A DNA stretch of 64,000 nucleotides from contig OX485803.1 of the NCBI GenBank assembly GCA_950295325.1, positions 52,159,554 to 52,223,553 of the forward strand. Reading direction: 5' to 3'. Below, piece by piece: positions 1-63,700 of this stretch. The notes beneath the pieces were generated by a model, which was given only the letters and a program-made list of their open reading frames with translations, was not told the origin of the DNA and made no database searches. Position 1 is the stretch's first letter. Every line of letters starts with the position of its first letter. The position numbers and the translations under genes are program-made. This DNA comes from Polytrichum commune (Eukaryota; Streptophyta; Polytrichopsida; Polytrichales; Polytrichaceae).

Positions 1-1905
1 TGTGTCAAAAACCATTGTCAGTGGTGCTTCACCTTCTGGGGCAATTTATTCAGTGATGTTGGAGAAGATTTCAATTCAAACATTGATGGAGAATGGTGGT
101 CATGAGCATCCGTTAATGTTGAAAACATTTGAATTTGTGACTAAGGTCAGTATACTCAACATTGAACTTATTTTTATTTTATGATATATCACTAGTAGAA
201 AACATGGTAAAAAAGAACCGCATTCGTTTTTCCATTGCGGTTCTTTTGACCACCCTGATCTGCAGTCACTAAACGACTGCAGATTTTTCTTTTTTGTTTT
301 ACGACTACAATTTTAAAATTTTGGGGGCATGTAATACACCGTTGGAAAGGTATTTTCAAGACCTTTCCAGATATATATTAAAAGCCCCCAAATTCCTAAA
401 AATTTAGTTGGTAAACCAAAAAAGAAAAATCTGCAGTCGTTTAGTGACTGCAGATCAGGGTGGTCAAAAGAACCGCAATGGACAAACGACTGCGGTTCTT
501 TTTTACCATGTTTTCTACTAGTGTATGGTGTTGATGTTGCAACATGTTTTGGACTTGAGTGTAATATTGTTTTTTGGTTTTTTTTTTTGTAGGTGGGTTC
601 CGGACGCAATAGGAGGGTTTCTTCAAAGGATTGTAGTTTTGGAGGTTTTGACCTTATTATTGCAGATTTGCCAGAAGGTTTGCCTGTACCTAACGTTTCA
701 TGTCCTCCACATATAATCCCAGCTTGGAACGACCACAAGAGAAAGAATATTGAGGCTCTAAATTTGCATGTGCATATCTCACCGATGATGGCCCCTTGCT
801 TTTGTTTGTTCCTGAGAAGAAAGATGTCAGAGAGGATATAAGGACATTCGCAGCCTCCTATGATTTTGTATTGCGAAAAGATTGGTGGGGCTTCAACGAG
901 TTGCCTTTGTGTTATCCACTTGACATATCATTGACGGTATACATTAAAGTCTATTATTTATTACTTTGAATTCTACTTTTTCATTGTATTGCAATGTTCT
1001 CATCAATTTTGTAATTGATTCCCCCGCTGAAGGTTTTCTCGTGGTTTATAGACTCGTCGTTTCCGCATCATGTTGTTTCTTCGTTCTACTCCCAAGTCGG
1101 AGTTTGTTTTTAAAAAAAAGAACGCAAATACTAAGGTGGATGTGGAGGCCTTGGATGTGTTCTTCAATCTCACATCGGCAAGCACTCAACTCATGAACGG
1201 AAAAGTGCCATGGAGAGGTGGTAGGGAGAAAGACTCGGAATCGATGCAAATCTTAATAGAGGCTTTAACAACTCCCGCATCGGTTGTCCTCGATGCTTAT
1301 GCATCTAAAGGTTGGTTTATCTCTTACTCAAAGGACCTATTATATCATCTCCCAATGTGTTTTAATGAAATCATTGTAGTGTTGTCAGTGGCTTGTGCAA
1401 AGTAACTGACATTTCAACATTTCATTGGCAGGTGCATCTATTCATGCTTGCAGAAATAGTGGGCGCCATCTAGTGGCATATGAGGAAGATTCTGCATTGT
1501 TTGATGCCATTCTATCCCCATTAAGTGATCCACCACCAACTGCTACTGTAGGTGGATTTATGCCATATAATGCCTCCATCGATTCCGATGAAGAGCATGT
1601 TAAGAAGGTTGCGAGAAAAAGTTGATTGAGTACGTAAGTTTTCAATTTCTCCATATTGTTTGTTAATTTGGCCCTCCAATGACTGATATGTGTGCACTAG
1701 AAGTCTAACACTTATGATGTCAATTTGCAGAAAAAAGAAAAACATGACTTCATCTCCGAATATGGGTTTGCCAATATATGCAGAAAATGTTGCATAGATC
1801 ATGGCAATATCAGTGACGCCAACTCCTCGCCGTATATCTACACGAATTGCTCGTAACCCGTATGTAGATAATGAGGCGATTCAATGCGATGATCTAAGTG
1901 ATTAA
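1..1905 (+). pseudogene. Beta-class (N4-cytosine/N6-adenine) DNA methyltransferase-like gene, 3' part, frame-damaged
   Basis: Exons read as <1-145, 593-936, 1052-1310, 1432-1633 and 1731-1905, with GT..AG introns that join in phase where it can be tested (phase 0 at 145/593 and 936/1052, phase 1 at 1310/1432). Exon 2 encodes FDLIIADLPEGLPVP, which fits a degenerate catalytic DPPY-type motif IV. It is followed by a DGPLLLFVPE strand. Exon 3 carries GKVPWRGGREKDSES, and the exon 3/4 junction encodes VVLDAYASKGASIHAC, an AdoMet-binding motif I (D-x-F-x-G-x-G type). Next come GRHLVAYEED (acidic residue ending strand 2) and FDAIL. Motif IV before motif I defines the beta class (Pfam N6_N4_Mtase). 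A one-base deletion near 773 breaks exon 2. Frame changes are also needed near 1600 and in the last exon (1731-1905), where a TAG at about 1796 lies between two plausible coding stretches. The start lies left of the window. I read it as a recently decayed copy; sequencing error is the alternative. The substrate (DNA 4mC, 6mA or other) is not shown. Confidence 0.7.
190..523. mobile_element. CACTA-type MITE inside a methyltransferase intron
   Basis: The element starts CACTAGTAGAAAACATGG and ends with the exact inverse. It is flanked by a 3-bp target duplication TAT (187-189 and 524-526), which is the size made by CACTA (CMC) transposases. The arms, about 120 bp each, hold a CTGCAGTC..GACTGCAG pairing and the core is AT-rich. 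No coding capacity. It lies wholly within the intron 146-592. A decayed relative of its core lies at about 14376-14543. Confidence 0.85.
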
Positions 1906-2480
1906 GCTAAACTAGTTTAGGGACATTTAGGTAGTTGTCAATACCATCCACTATGTGTTTGATTGGATTGGATATGATTGGATTGGATATTATTTGGTGG
2001 ATGTGTGACAAAGTTTGGATTCATCATTTGAAATTACCACAATTAGTGGACATTGAATTGTGTGAACAATTTCCTCTTATTCCTAAACCCTATATCCTAA
2101 AACTTAATTACCTCTATCAATCCATTTCTCAAACTTACATGAATTTTAGAAATACAGTTTAGAGCAATACTTGGAAGGTGCTTGCATTGTTATTACAATT
2201 GGATGTTGCATCCAACAACAACATTAAAAATATTTTTCAAACCCTCATGCCAAGCTTGCAGTTGTTGAATTTAAAAGTAGAGTTAGGTATTCATGAGGAT
2301 AATTACATTTTTTGACTATCCATTAATTTTATTATAGAAAAAAATATTATTATTTATGCCAAAATACCACGGATATAGGGTACTAGTGCGTGTATTTCCA
2401 AAAATCTTTCCTCACCTACCGTTCACAAGTTACTGCTCATCGCTCACCGCTCACATGATAGCACTCCCCGTAGGTTGGGG
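1906..2480. other. AT-rich intergenic sequence, no gene seen
   Basis: 3' flank of the methyltransferase pseudogene. It holds short GATTGGAT repeats near 1960-1990 and no supported ORF or RNA gene. Confidence 0.5.
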
Positions 2481-29703: not shown

Positions 29704-31986
29704 ATGGCTAGCTTCATTAAAGAGGTATGTCTCGTGTTGGAGCACTGTTGTATAGAGGAGGAGGAGGAGGAGGAGGAGGAGGAGGATGATAATGATGATG
29801 ATGATGCTTCGGTGTATTGCAAATTACACGGGTTGGAGTTTTGTAAGGAAGGTGGTTGTATGCATGAGTAAGTAGGTCGGTGACTTATGCTTGCATTGGA
29901 AGGGTGGTGTTAGAATGGAATACCTGTGTTTATTTGCAATTTGCAGCATTTTGAGGGTTGGGGGCTAAGTTAGCTGCAGTCAACTGAAATTCCTGGGCTA
30001 TGGCGGTGGAGGAGGCGAGATGCATGAGTTTGTGTAACGTAGTGGTGGTCAAATGTTCCTGGGGAGTTCCAGAGGATCGGTGGAAGTAGCTGATTGACAT
30101 CGTCGTGTTTGTGAGCTTGTTGTTCTTGTTGGGTTATCTTTGGGAAATGGTTGGGTGAAGCGATAAAGTGTTTGGAATGTGGAGGAGGCTAAAGTTAGTT
30201 GACTGAAGGGAGCTTTATTGCCCATGTGCAATTATCGTGCTTAATCACTTGGGTTATGTATGTATGTGTGGCGGTCAAATGGTCCCGGGGAGTTTCGGAG
30301 GGCTTGGCGGAAGCAGGATCGGTGGAATTAGCTGATTTTGCTTTCGTGATTGGCACACTCGTGTTCGTGAGCTAGTTGTTCTGTTGAGTTCTGTTGGGGG
30401 ATGTTTAGGTGAAAAGTAGAGTGGTCGGGAATGGTGAGGCCAGATTGTGTTAGTCACTAGGGTATGTTCAAGTGGTCCGGGGGAGTTCCGGAGGGCTTTC
30501 GTGGAAGCAGAACCGGTGATAATGATTCTGTCTTCATGATTCTACATTCTTGTGTTTGGGCGCTTGTTGTTGATCTCGTTGAGTTATGTTTGTTTTGGAA
30601 GGATGTTTGGGTTATGGTGAGAATGGTGAGGCGGAGGCCGCCGGAGTAGTTCGATGATTGAAGGGAGGTTAATGCTCGTGTTTGTGATCTCGTTAAGTTA
30701 TGCTGTGGGAGAATGTTTGCGTTATGGTTGGAATGGTGAAGTTGGTTGGTTGACGATGAAAGGGAGGTTTTGTTATTGGTCTTGTTGAGTGTATGATTGG
30801 GGAGGCTGGTAGAGTGGTTGAAATGCTTGCGTTATGCGTCGGAGAATGTTTGGAGTAAACTGGTGGAGTGGGTTATGGTGGGTTATGAGTTGAAGATGTT
30901 TGGGTTATGAGTTGGAATGGGTTCGGAGGAGGCCACCAAGGAGTTCGTGCATGAAACATTGAAGTGAGAGGACTTGTTTTGTTGCTGTTTTGTGTGCAGT
31001 TTTTCAAGGGGAAAGATGAGCCGGACTACCGGTACAGCTACGACCAGCACCGGGCACCCGAGTCGCGCTCGCACTACAACTACCCCACAGGCAGCAGCGA
31101 CCGACGACGCTCGTCCTCCGGAGGGGGAGGCTACGACGCATCACTCCCAGTGCACGAGCTGATGGTTCCTATGTGCTGCGACAAGTGCGTGGAGAAGGTT
31201 GAGGAGGAGCTCAGCGAAGTGGAAGGAGTCCGCCACGTCTCCTGCGACCAGTACAAGCAGCGAGTACGCATCGTCGGCTCCAACATCGACATAGCCCGCG
31301 CACTCAAGAAGGCCGAGAAGGCAGTGAGCAAGAAATGCGAGCTTCTCAACTCCTCCGAGACTTCGAGCATGCTTCGCGACGACGACAAACAAGAGATTCG
31401 GTACACTAACCACCAACTCGTTCACCCGAGCTCCCGCTCCAGCGGTGGGCTAGTCAGGTCAAACTCCTTCGACCGCAACCTCGGGAGGTTACCTTCCTTC
31501 GGCCCGGTCAGCCGCAACAACCGTGAAGGGGCTGGTAATCGTGACCTATACGAGCCGCGAGGTCTTGGTGCTAGTAACGGTAGCCGTGACCTATACGAGG
31601 CCCGCGGCGGAGGGGGATATGGCGGGTTTGGAAGAATGCCATCGTTCAACAAGCACCGTCACCATGACGCAGAGTACATCACCGACTACGTTGATGAGAG
31701 ACGCGGGGGTCCTGAGCCTCGTGACGCTCGTCGTGACTATTACAGCAACCTCAACCGATTGCCGTCGTTCAACAAGCACCGTCACCATGACGCGGAGTAT
31801 ATTGCCTCCGATGACCGTGATTATGGCGGTAACAGGGGGTACTATGAGAGCGACTCACTGCAGCAGAGCAACAACGGTGGTGGGTACCGGTCGCAGTTCT
31901 ACGATGGGCCTAGGTTCCAATCCCAGCCTTCTTTCTCCAAGCTTCCTGTCACCAACCCTCACTATGTGAAGCACATCGCCTACTGA
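29704..31986 (+). CDS. HMA-domain (heavy-metal-associated) protein, 335 aa, two exons
   Basis: Exons 29704-29724 (MASFIKE) and 31000-31986, GT..AG intron in phase 0. The joined protein begins MASFIKEFFKGKDEPDYRYS. Residues about 57-125 form an HMA fold: LPVHELMVPMCCDKCVEKVE with the metal-binding pair Cys67/Cys70 (CDKC), then VEGVRHVSCDQYKQRVRIVG and ALKKAEKAVSKKCELL. Such domains bind Cu, Zn or Cd ions or act as protein-interaction modules in plant HPP/HIPP proteins. The C-terminal 200 residues are low-complexity (G, R, S, Y, D). They carry RLPSF/RMPSF motifs at several places and a 14-residue PSFNKHRHHDAEYI unit present twice. There is no C-terminal CaaX box (ends VKHIAY), so it is an HPP rather than an isoprenylated HIPP. 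The 5' extension of the exon 2 frame to 30964 is intronic. No signal peptide; probably cytosolic or nuclear. The function of the repeat tail is unknown. Confidence 0.88.
29755..29808. repeat. GAG/GAT trinucleotide repeat in the first intron
   Basis: A run of GAG/GGA triplets followed by GAT triplets, 30-80 bp after the donor site of the HMA gene intron. Confidence 0.85.
30048..30660 (+). repeat. Degenerate tandem repeat inside the HMA first intron
   Basis: Blocks beginning CAAATGTTCCTGGGGAGTTC (30048), CAAATGGTCCCGGGGAGTTT (30278) and CAAGTGGTCCGGGGGAGTTC (30468) each continue with GGAGGGCTT..GGAAGCAG..CGGTG and GTGTT..GAGC..GTTGTT. Weaker TTGAGTTATG..GGAATGGTGA units continue to about 30920. 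G/T-rich on the sense strand. Confidence 0.7.
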
Positions 31987-60127: not shown

Positions 60128-60710
60128 TTTGGTTGATAATTTCTGCACGGTTGGGCATGTAGTGGGATATTAGCATTTTCCGTTTCAATCGTGGACCGCA
60201 AATTTTGCAGGGTTGTGCAGTTGGTGAATTAGTATTCATTGGATTGTTTGTGGTCGATTTCTGCACGGGTTGGGTTTTGGTGGGTTAGCACTCTGCGGTT
60301 CAAATTGTGGATGGTAAATTCTGTCGAGGTTGGGCTTCGGTGGGTGAGCATTCTGCAGAGGTTGAGTTTTGCTCGATAAAGTCTTCAGGGTTGGGCTACA
60401 TTTGGTCGGTTAGCATTCTTCGATTCAGTTTTGGTCGATTTCTGGAGGGTTGGGATTCGATGGGTTAGCATTCTTCACTTCAGTTTCGGTCGATAAATTT
60501 TGCAAAGTTGGGCGTCTGATGGGTTAGCATTTTTCGGTTAAGTTTTGGTCGATAAATTCTGTCAGGGTTGGGCTTATGGTCGGTGAGCATTCCGCGTGGG
60601 TCAAGATATGGTCGATAAATTTTGCAGGTTTGGGCTAAATCTGGTGGGTTAGCATTCTTCGGTTTAGTTTTGGCCAACAAAACTCTGCGGGGTTGGACCA
60701 CTTCGGACAC
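60128..60710 (+). repeat. Tandem repeat, about 59 bp x 9-10, in the leader intron of the ERD7-like gene
   Basis: Units of 55-63 bp contain TCGATAAATT(T/C)TGCAGG, GTTGGGCTTCGGTGGGTTAG and CATTCTTCGGTTCAGTTTTG variants, for example from about 60248, 60308, 60373, 60431, 60489, 60550 and 60612. Each unit carries an acceptor-like TTYTGCAGG. Sense strand G/T-rich. Confidence 0.8.
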
Positions 60711-60762
60711 AAACTAAGTGTTGCAGATTCAGTTTGAAACAGAATTCGGATCCGGTAACAAG

Positions 60763-63700
60763 ATGAACTGGTTGCGGAAGAACAACCCGTTCGATAGCGG
60801 CTCGGATGATCATTATCATCAACAGCAACAGCAACAGACAAGCCAATTCTACCCGAGCCAGTACGAGTACCAACCTCCGCAGTACGTGCCTAGCCGATCG
60901 ACATCCATGGCACCGCCCGCGAGATCCACGAGCTCCTCCGCCTTCGAGGCTCCACAGATCTTCCGCACATACTCGCAAAACTCCCGTCGGATGGAGGCAG
61001 CTCCACCCGCGTACGAGGGTGCGTACAGCTATCGATCCCCGAGCTCCTCACCCGAGGACTACCGTCAGCAGCAGCACCCGGACCACATGTTCCGCACCAC
61101 GTCCAACACCTACGACTTCAACCAGGTGACGTCCACGCACTTCGTGGAGCCGAGTGCGGGTGCCAACCAAGAGGTGGAGGCGTCGGAGGAGGTGTTGGTG
61201 AGGATCCCCGAGGCTATGGTGCACTTGATTGGCGACCAGGAGAGTCCGTTGCTGGCCAAGGGGGATTTCTCCGTGGTCAGGGTTGATCAGCAGGGGAATG
61301 GGATCGTGGTGTTTGTGCGAGTGGGTGAGCAGCTCCGTTGGCCCTTGACGAAGGATGAGCCGGCTGTGAAGTTGGATCGTACTCACTACTTCTTCACCAT
61401 CCGTGTACCGCGCCCGGTCGATGAGATGGACAGCGAGACGGCCAGACAGGTCAGTTTAGACAACATTCTCTACGTTATGAGTGTGTGGGTCTTTGTTTCG
61501 CCATAGGCCGTCTGATTATGAGATGAAAATCTCCTATGGTTTGTCAGGGCATTTGTTTCACATGAATTCAAGCGAAGCGCCACTTGGAGGTGAGCCCGTG
61601 CCCGCATGTGAGGTTGTGTGTTCAGCGAGCAGGAAAAATAACTCCCAAGTAGACTAGCCACCGCAGCATTTTAGATGCTTAAAATTGAACGCATCCGCCA
61701 AGTGGGTTAGTCGTCCCGACGCTTTTGAAAGGTGGTCCCAATGTGAGATGGATTTTTATATTTATTTGATTTAGTGGGGTTACTTGTAGCAGCGGAGGAA
61801 ATTGCTTCCTTAAGGTTGTGGAGCATGGGAGAATCAAGCCGGGCGAATCCGAAGTTATATGTTGGTAGTTGCATGTACACTGGGAATGAAAAATGTGTTC
61901 CAAGTAGATGTTGTCGCAACACTTATTTCTAAGATACTTGGGAATGGAGGGCACCAAGTACGCGAGGCATGACAGCATCTAGATGCTTCAGAAATAGAAG
62001 GTGGTCGTATGCACATGAATACGAAGGAGGATTTCTTTATGGAGGACTTCTCATTTGCGCTAGAGTGAAATCACGAGTTTGCGCTTGAGCCATGTGGCCG
62101 GGGAATACTTCACTTAAATTGCTTCTGTTCATCATATGGATCCCAAACGTCCTTTTCTCCATGTGCTAATTCTTTTTGGCATGGGAGAGGAGTGTTAGCG
62201 CTAATGGATCAATTGATGAATGGACCTCATTGATAATGCGGTGGGATGAAATTGGGAAGATTACTACTGACATGTTACGATTTTCGCGCATTGGTGTCAT
62301 GTACAGCCTGGTGGAGAGACAATGAGCTATGGAGTCACATTTCAAGTGTATGGGCACGAGAGGGAGCTGCAGGAGCTGGACAGAACGTTGGACACGTACG
62401 GGAATTTCTCGACGCCGACGGTGGTCCATGGCGACAGACAGAAAGATCAGCAATACAACGGCATGGGAGGTGGTCGCTCCGGCAAGATGGGTGGCATGAT
62501 TGTGCCTCAGGACGTGCTCTCCAGCGATGGGAAGCAGGTACCTCTCATAGCACCTACTTATAAATCTATTGACTAGCAGAGGGTTAGTTAGCCGATGGCT
62601 TTGGTCGTGGGATGTCTTAACATTGATTTTACTCAATCAAGCAATTAGGGATGACAAGATTTGGGCACTGACGCTATGGGCCTAATATTGTTTCTTGCAG
62701 GTGACGGAGGGAAATCAATCGGAGTTTTGGATGACAATGGCGCCGAATGTTGAAGACTACAACAGCTCCATAGCGAAGAGCATGGCAAAGGGCACTGGTC
62801 ACATCATCCGGGGAATATTCTGGGTGCGAGATTCAACCGTAGCTCGCCTTGAGAATGGCAGTCTGTACATGAAGGGCCGAATTAAGTCCAACTCTAAGCC
62901 CAGCCAGATCAGCCCAAGAACACTGCGCAATTTGAAGAGGTGAGTCCGGATGATCACGTTCATAGTGAACGGTATAATTGCATCATGTGACAGCAACCAA
63001 GAATGCGGGTAGATTAAGGGCACTATATGCGGGGATTGTGAATTTTGTGGTAGTTTTGGAATTTTTGAGAAAATTCAAATTATCTAATCAGTTGTTGGCT
63101 TTGCAGAGTGAGGAACATGTCTGTGGCGACAGAGAGTGTGGCGAAGAGTGTGCTTGAGGGTGTCGTGAAAACTGCAGGATTCTTCTCGGGCGCCATGATA
63201 AGATCGAAACCAGGGAAGAAGTTCTTCAAGCTCCTTCCTGGAGAAGTGGCTCTCGTCTCCCTCGATGCTTTTGGTATGTGCAATCCCAACACATTCTAGC
63301 AAACATCAATATAGGATGAAAATGCTGTAACAATGACAAGGATTGATATTCAGTAGTCGTTTGTTTAGCCTTCGGTGTTCATCACGATGTGGAATTTAAT
63401 TCTAGAGTTCTGCAAGAAACAAAGTGTAATGTTCCGACTGATCTTAAGCTTGAAATGCTAACATTGCAATTAATTTTTGCGAATTATTTGACAGCCAAGA
63501 TATTCGATGCGGTGGAGAAAGCGGGAACAGACATTATGCAGTCCACATCCATGTACACACAAGATGTTGTAACTCACAGGTGAAATTTTCTATTCATGTA
63601 ACAATTTGCTCTCTGTTCTATGTATGCTACCCCACAAAAATATTGATTTTTCTGGTCGACCGTACAAATTCGGTTGAATTTTCTCGTCAATTTCCTTGCT

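Follow-up and report, generated by a model that had tools for sequence, protein, structure and literature searches.

A Methylase-like Gene in the Moss Polytrichum commune Belongs to a High-Copy DNA Transposon

Why would the nuclear genome of a moss carry a gene for a bacterial-type DNA methyltransferase? This question is raised by a stretch of 64,000 nucleotides from Polytrichum commune (contig OX485803.1, positions 52,159,554 to 52,223,553; hereafter the window), taken from an assembly that totals 408 Mb and consists of 64 contigs, of which seven are large. The first-pass annotation had read positions 1–1905 as a plant gene for a beta-class enzyme with an altered DPPY site, and had guessed that it might belong to a mobile family. 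The guess proved apt: the methylase-like gene belongs to a high-copy DNA transposon, where its existence as an accessory gene is secure. It is not an independent plant gene, and the copy in the window is frame-shifted. We consider it probable that the window contains the 3′ half of one copy, with a broken frame, of an accessory gene that belongs to a family of TIR (Mutator-like) DNA transposons of the moss.

Methylase-like exons in the window

The three stretches quoted in the annotation, ADLPEGL, DGPLLLFVPE and LDAYASK|GASIHAC, lie in this order on the + strand between positions 593 and 1625. They are preceded by an exon at 2–145 (+ strand) that codes for a linker upstream of the methylase domain (...LKTFEFVTK); its frame is open, its GT donor is at 146 and its start lies left of the window. 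Three GT/AG introns are visible (146–592, 937–1051 and 1311–1431), as the annotation had held, and the nuclear location is also borne out. The exon at 593–936 (+ strand) encodes motif IV (ADLPEGLPVPNVS), with ADLPEGL, and the strand DGPLLLFVPE. These two parts are read in different frames because of a small deletion: four bases are absent near 757–765, so that this exon has 344 bases in the window and 348 in the C6 copy. This copy of the methylase gene is therefore broken and has no single-frame translation. The exon at 1052–1310 (+ strand) contributes PWRGGREK and the first half of motif I (VVLDAYASK), and is spliced at GT/AG borders to the exon at 1432–1625 (+ strand), which supplies the second half (GASIHACRNSGRHLVAYEED) and runs to a TGA. 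Nested in the first intron is a CACTA-type MITE of 334 bp (190–523) with CACTAGTAGAAAA ends and TAT on either side. Its ends match each other at 127 of 150 ungapped positions. The end motifs occur in five of seven window-lineage copies, and are missing from the C6 copy and from one of two C7 copies (L001, L004); the MITE was probably carried along by transposition.

Three lines of comparison identify the domain. When the frame break is bridged, the protein encoded in the window matches the Pfam family PF01555 (N6_N4_Mtase) with an E-value of 7.8e-5 (23.2 bits), and its C-terminal part alone with 1.6e-5 (25.5 bits), both slightly lower than the curated cut-off of 26.7 bits. Alignment A1 consists of nine relatives from the moss genome and leaves out the window copy. 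PF01555 recognizes all nine at E ≤ 0.5, the best of them at 4e-9, and the first member exceeds the cut-off with 35.1 bits. The A1 profile retrieves beta-class enzymes from the PDB, namely 5hfj (1.3e-9, DpnA), 5hek (1.5e-9) and CcrM (6pbd, 2e-7). An AlphaFold model of the relative L043 is of middling confidence (mean pLDDT 69.5, pTM 0.77) and poor in the loop directly after the catalytic tetrad (residues 20–31 at pLDDT <50). A Foldseek search with this model returned CcrM (9.1e-10) as well as RsrI, M.BceJIV, M1.HpyAVI, PvuII and the rotifer N4CMT; the first 42 rows are all DNA amino-methyltransferases, with TM of about 0.4–0.6 and rmsd of 5–13 Å. From these profile, PDB and Foldseek matches it follows that the fold and the motif order are those of a beta-class amino-methyltransferase, with motif IV before motif I, and the bacterial-type character claimed by the annotation stands. 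Positions 1–1625 of the window thus encode exons of a beta-class amino-methyltransferase-like domain. The moss protein resembles CcrM, M.RsrI, M1.HpyAVI, M.BceJIV, M.PvuII and N4CMT in motif order, fold and SAM motif. Unlike these bacterial enzymes and N4CMT, it lacks a [DNS]PP[YFW] tetrad, contains extra N-terminal and middle regions and is encoded by a eukaryotic transposon.

Searching the moss genome with PF01555 at E ≤ 0.001 gave five matches, of which two are members of the transposon family and three are on bacterial-looking contigs. No separate canonical host amino-methyltransferase was seen in this search, which is weak evidence of absence because most copies of the transposon family were missed too. 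Canonical methylases on contigs C10 and C12 were set aside; the open frames of both contigs look bacterial, and we take them as contaminants. They include frames of 501 and 722 amino acids at C12:28500–30500 (L095) and C10:13000–15700 (L096) that match ParB_N and N6_N4_Mtase. These are the ParB-methylase fusion of bacteria with normal DPPY sites, and the 722-residue frame shows an intein-like insertion by eye. Another contig, C8 (146.6 kb), carries psaA and psaB; the latter, a plastid gene, is closest to the PDB entries 8htu, 6l35 and 7ksq, which are Physcomitrium structures, and this agrees with a moss as host.

The transposon and its genes

The feature that the annotation placed at 1–1905 begins outside the window, to its left, and continues on the other side as far as position 2469. 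The element that carries the gene occupies C1:52149802–52162022 (12.2 kb). Window positions 1–2469 (+ strand) are its right-hand part, and its left end was aligned at C1:52149802, so that some 9.75 kb of the element precede the window. The right terminus GCACTCCCC is at 2461–2469, and sister copies share sequence up to the terminal region. Comparison of copies at the DNA level gave a common left end beginning with GAGGGAAGC (L014:666, L015:1856). The right terminal inverted repeat, with approximate borders at 2430–2469, consists of short GCTCAC-type repeats that end in GCACTCCCC. Inverted terminal repeats are short and imperfect, with matches of 19–38 bp in the C7 copy. Directly outside the right terminus lies a 9-bp target-site duplication (GTAGGTTGG, 2470–2478), the left copy of which is at C1:52149793–52149801. 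Ten copies were compared at their aligned ends, and eight of them are flanked by target duplications of 9–11 bp. In five (the window copy, C5a, C7, C3 and E7) the duplication is exact and 9 bp long, in two (C2 and C5b) it measures 10 bp and in one (C1b) 11 bp. The duplication of copy E6 agrees at eight of nine positions and sits inside a 139-bp tandem array; none was found at the ends of C6b.

Copies of the family are numerous. The window protein finds at least 208 exon matches in the genome, with 150 of 2354 candidates scored. The corresponding numbers are at least 150 for the N-terminal exon from a different lineage (150 of 1131 candidates scored), at least 40 for the 5′ part of a young lineage (40 of 72 candidates scored), and at least 41, at 40 places, for the 3′ end (40 of 483 candidates scored). 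The N-terminal-exon and young-lineage lists together give at least about 190 related places. Elsewhere in the window, two long open frames look like host genes (30955–31986 and 60718–61506); the product of the former would be heavy-metal-associated-domain-like, that of the latter senescence/dehydration-associated-like. A degenerate tandem array with 62/125-bp units (60259–60696) lies just upstream of the latter frame.

Near its left end, on the − strand and thus opposite the accessory gene, the element carries a transposase-like gene. Its open frames comprise 653 and 457 residues in the C7 copy, and 751 and 514 in the younger C3 relative; elements of the window and young lineages, as well as L054 and L055, all have a gene in this orientation. 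By eye we recognized the motifs GFMADSAQANW, CLFHW and NLAETMHN and a C-terminal CxC..CxH finger (CTCPDF..CKH), a layout that we take to be that of Mutator-like transposases. The likeness to DDE and SWIM domains was likewise read by eye, and the hmmscan match to SWIM is weak (E 0.54). Pfam scans did not recognize the transposase proteins. With 150 of 271 candidates scored, the MULE profile PF10551 gave at least 142 matches in the moss, and these do not include the transposases of five copies (window, C6, C7, young C3 and L055). An hhalign comparison of the transposase, from a shallow alignment, with three MULE copies of the moss genome gave no informative match. The N-terminal part of the transposase has no match in L054. 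The Mutator-like assignment rests on the length of the target duplications, the ends and the layout. An open frame adjoining the L054 element (L054:2–748, C3:38249601–38250347) resembles a pogo/Tigger-type transposase and may thus mark another DNA transposon.

The accessory gene lies on the + strand, pointing toward the right end, and codes in order for an N-terminal domain, a middle part and the methylase domain. Its first exons lie outside the window (L007:5569–6540). The N-terminal domain is common to the lineages examined (alignment A3, 11 members, 58% mean column identity) and follows the pattern IPLCR...VRP...GYR.G...FFVWDGNHR..AW. By eye this domain is ParB-like; Pfam, PDB profile, fold and hhalign tests gave no significant match to ParB, and the predicted model is not confident (pLDDT 42). 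Since the domain has neither a significant Pfam or PDB match nor a confident model, the case for DNA binding rests on this likeness by eye and on the algal parallel described below. A genome search with PF02195 returned four matches, all on small bacterial-looking contigs. A pattern search for relatives of the domain gave 54 matches in viral contigs and 18 in prokaryotes, with each species represented by a single genome, and none was confirmed; the methylase of L043 gave a single, unconfirmed pattern match in viral contigs. Upstream of the N-terminal domain of L055, frames at L055:6645–7561 (C1:9657844–9658760) contain FHCDLSFTNI...IGDWGSA and look kinase-like by eye.

Between the divergent transposase-like and accessory genes sits a tandem array with a lineage-specific unit. 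That of the window element is 360 bp long and present in 5.3 copies; units in the young lineage measure 128 and 171 bp, that of L054 64 bp and that of L055 104 bp. With one unit per array compared, no similarity at E <0.01 was found across element lineages; within the young lineage, the 128- and 171-bp units are related to each other. Two young copies have a further 138-bp array downstream of the accessory gene.

Selection on the accessory gene and its history

Ratios of nonsynonymous to synonymous substitution were computed with a Nei-Gojobori script. In-frame stops, one each in L003, L005, L042 and L081, were skipped, and L006 and E7 were counted as one copy. This leaves, in the window lineage, seven distinct copies of recent age, with a dN/dS of 1.04 over three methylase exons. 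In the L054 lineage the ratio is 0.80 (eleven copies, one exon), and for the transposases of a pair of recent copies it is 1.13. These values indicate neutral drift of the recent copies after insertion. Other comparisons give lower ratios: 0.12 for six copies of the young lineage (pS 0.19), 0.23 for the N-terminal exon among six L054-type copies, and 0.064 and 0.066 for the transposases of two copies compared with L055. Between the window lineage and five sister-lineage loci, dN/dS over two exons is 0.16–0.28, a rough estimate at a pS of 0.65–0.69 near saturation. Synonymous sites were saturated, and no ratio is given, where transposases were compared with those of the young lineage (three cases) and where six young copies were compared with L023. 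The low dN/dS across lineages suggests that both the transposase and the methylase genes are maintained, as expected of functional parts of an element. The methylase gene thus appears to be a working part of the element, under purifying selection between lineages.

The two explanations that would deny the gene such a role fit these data poorly. One regards it as a stand-alone nuclear methyltransferase family of the moss, of the liverwort DN4MT type, that merely happens to lie amid repeats. Introns, nuclear location and beta-class motif order would all agree with such a family; its copies, however, share terminal-repeat starts and ends and are flanked by target duplications, they are present in high number, and the one in the window is frame-broken. 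The element borders contradict this explanation, and we give it hardly any credence. According to the other, a host gene or fragment was passively captured in the manner of a Pack-MULE and is functionless for the element. The neutral ratios of the recent copies (1.04 and 0.80), and the stops or frame breaks in a number of copies, are what one would see in that case. Against it, the gene occurs in lineages that are only 25–42% alike in the methylase, it is under apparent purifying selection wherever the divergence permits a ratio, and it has the same placement opposite the transposase-like gene in four elements. Passive capture is thus very improbable; we dropped the Pack-MULE class itself because a transposase-like gene is present and the cargo is under selection between lineages.

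The working part of the element seems to have had a history of its own. We compared pairwise identities over the same four elements (window lineage, young lineage, L054 and L055). In the C-terminal part of the transposase, L055 and L054 are 89% identical, the window lineage is 79–80% identical to these two, and identity to the young lineage is 46–48%. The closest pair of methylases is that of the window and young lineages (42%); L055 and L054 share 25%, and the four other pairs 26–30%. The N-terminal domain shows 36–41% identity in all six pairs. By these identities, the methylase appears far more divergent than the transposase and does not seem to share its history. This mismatch suggests accessory-gene swapping between elements, and the simplest reading would be an exchange between element backbones. 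Very fast evolution of the methylase in some lineages, or nested insertion in one element, may account for the pattern instead.

Altered active site and possible function

As the annotation had stated, the DPPY site is altered, and this alteration extends to the family. In 20 tblastn-aligned loci, aligned without any motif requirement, the first position of the tetrad is D in 17 and N in three, the second is L or I in all 20, the third is P in 18 and S in two, and the fourth is E in 16, K in two, N in one and G in one. The canonical [DNS]PP[YFW] is replaced throughout: none of the 20 loci has PP, and none has an aromatic residue at position 4. Profile alignment places the family tetrad on the DPPY of 5hfj. 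The L043 lineage has DIPD in seven of eight loci read and DIPY in one; other loci have QFPD (L054), DVPE (L056) and DIPA (L057). A motif scan that needed a hydrophobic second position, together with a further filter, left out six of the 20 loci (L028, L029, L030, L032, L037 and L041). Most A1 members retain the SAM motif [AS]TGAS..AC...GRH..A.E.D, and the PWRGxREK region is conserved in A1. In these alignments the place of the catalytic tetrad is taken mostly by D-[L/I]-P-[E/D], and the SAM-binding motif is retained. In the rotifer N4CMT, changing SPPY to APPA is reported to abolish 4mC (PMC8885841). With this result as a comparison, the altered tetrad leads us to doubt ordinary catalysis by the moss protein; selection nonetheless suggests that the methylase-like protein matters.

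Could the accessory protein actively write 4mC/6mA marks on its own element, with D-[L/I]-P-[E/D] as a working variant? Conservation of the SAM motif and of the PWRGxREK region, and apparent purifying selection on the methylase domain, would suit this proposal, and self-modification has been proposed by the Ectocarpus authors for the equivalent gene (PMC12477816). We nevertheless find it unlikely: a proline at the second position or an aromatic residue at the fourth is seen in none of the 20 loci, the single DIPY of the L043 lineage stands against seven DIPD, and the loss of 4mC in N4CMT on changing SPPY to APPA points the same way. Because the tetrad is mostly D-[L/I]-P-[E/D] and the SAM motif is kept, a SAM- and DNA-binding role, or changed chemistry, seems more likely than that of an ordinary writer. 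A bolder reading is tentative. It describes a methylase fold that transposons have rebuilt into a non-canonical regulator, with a conserved acid in place of the catalytic aromatic residue and a retained SAM pocket; the gene for this regulator would move between transposase backbones and be matched with a tandem array specific to each lineage. If true, this would be a plant anti-silencing or copy-control system that employs a methylase architecture without methyl transfer, or with an altered form of it.

Two known systems bear comparison. In Ectocarpus, a gene opposite the transposase of Sola1-1_Ec32 encodes a ParB-like protein with an N4/N6-methyltransferase (PMC12477816). Like the moss gene, it places a methylase of the same class opposite the transposase of a large DNA transposon. 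The algal element, in contrast, is a 21.5-kb member of the Sola family in a brown alga, whereas that of the moss makes target duplications of 9–11 bp and has a SWIM-like transposase; the moss also has several high-copy lineages and a replaced tetrad, and its ParB likeness is by eye only. The closest model of function would be VANC of the Arabidopsis VANDAL elements, an anti-silencing protein that recognizes, in non-coding parts, tandem motifs particular to each family (PMC5735166). VANC, too, is the product of an accessory gene of Mutator-like elements with non-coding tandem repeats that differ between families. The word methyltransferase occurs 0 times in the text on VANC (PMC5735166), which sets VANC apart from the methylase-like protein of the moss; for the moss protein, binding and demethylation would be extrapolations. 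By analogy, the moss protein may bind its element's own DNA, with the tandem arrays as likeliest target, and may thereby influence silencing or transposition of the element in a VANC/VANDAL-like fashion. DNA targeting, any catalysis and anti-silencing are matters of inference for this protein. Rather than being the product of an ordinary plant gene, the methylase-like protein is probably used by the element to manage its own DNA.

Mobile elements of other eukaryotes also carry DNA methyltransferases. C5 cytosine methyltransferases have been described within retrotransposons of Symbiodinium and Klebsormidium (PMC5890265); the classes of both enzyme and element are unrelated to those of the moss. 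A MULE survey (PMC6446971) contains 0 occurrences of "methyltransferase" or "moss". Titles and the starts of abstracts revealed no moss or land-plant transposon with such a gene, and an earlier mention in a moss is possible. Eukaryotic amino-methylase genes are easily mistaken for host enzymes derived from bacteria, and the many copies in this moss are those of a transposon. This cautions against taking such bryophyte genes for host writers of 4mC or 6mA. The moss also offers a test of the effect that a transposon-encoded methylase-like protein has on its own element.
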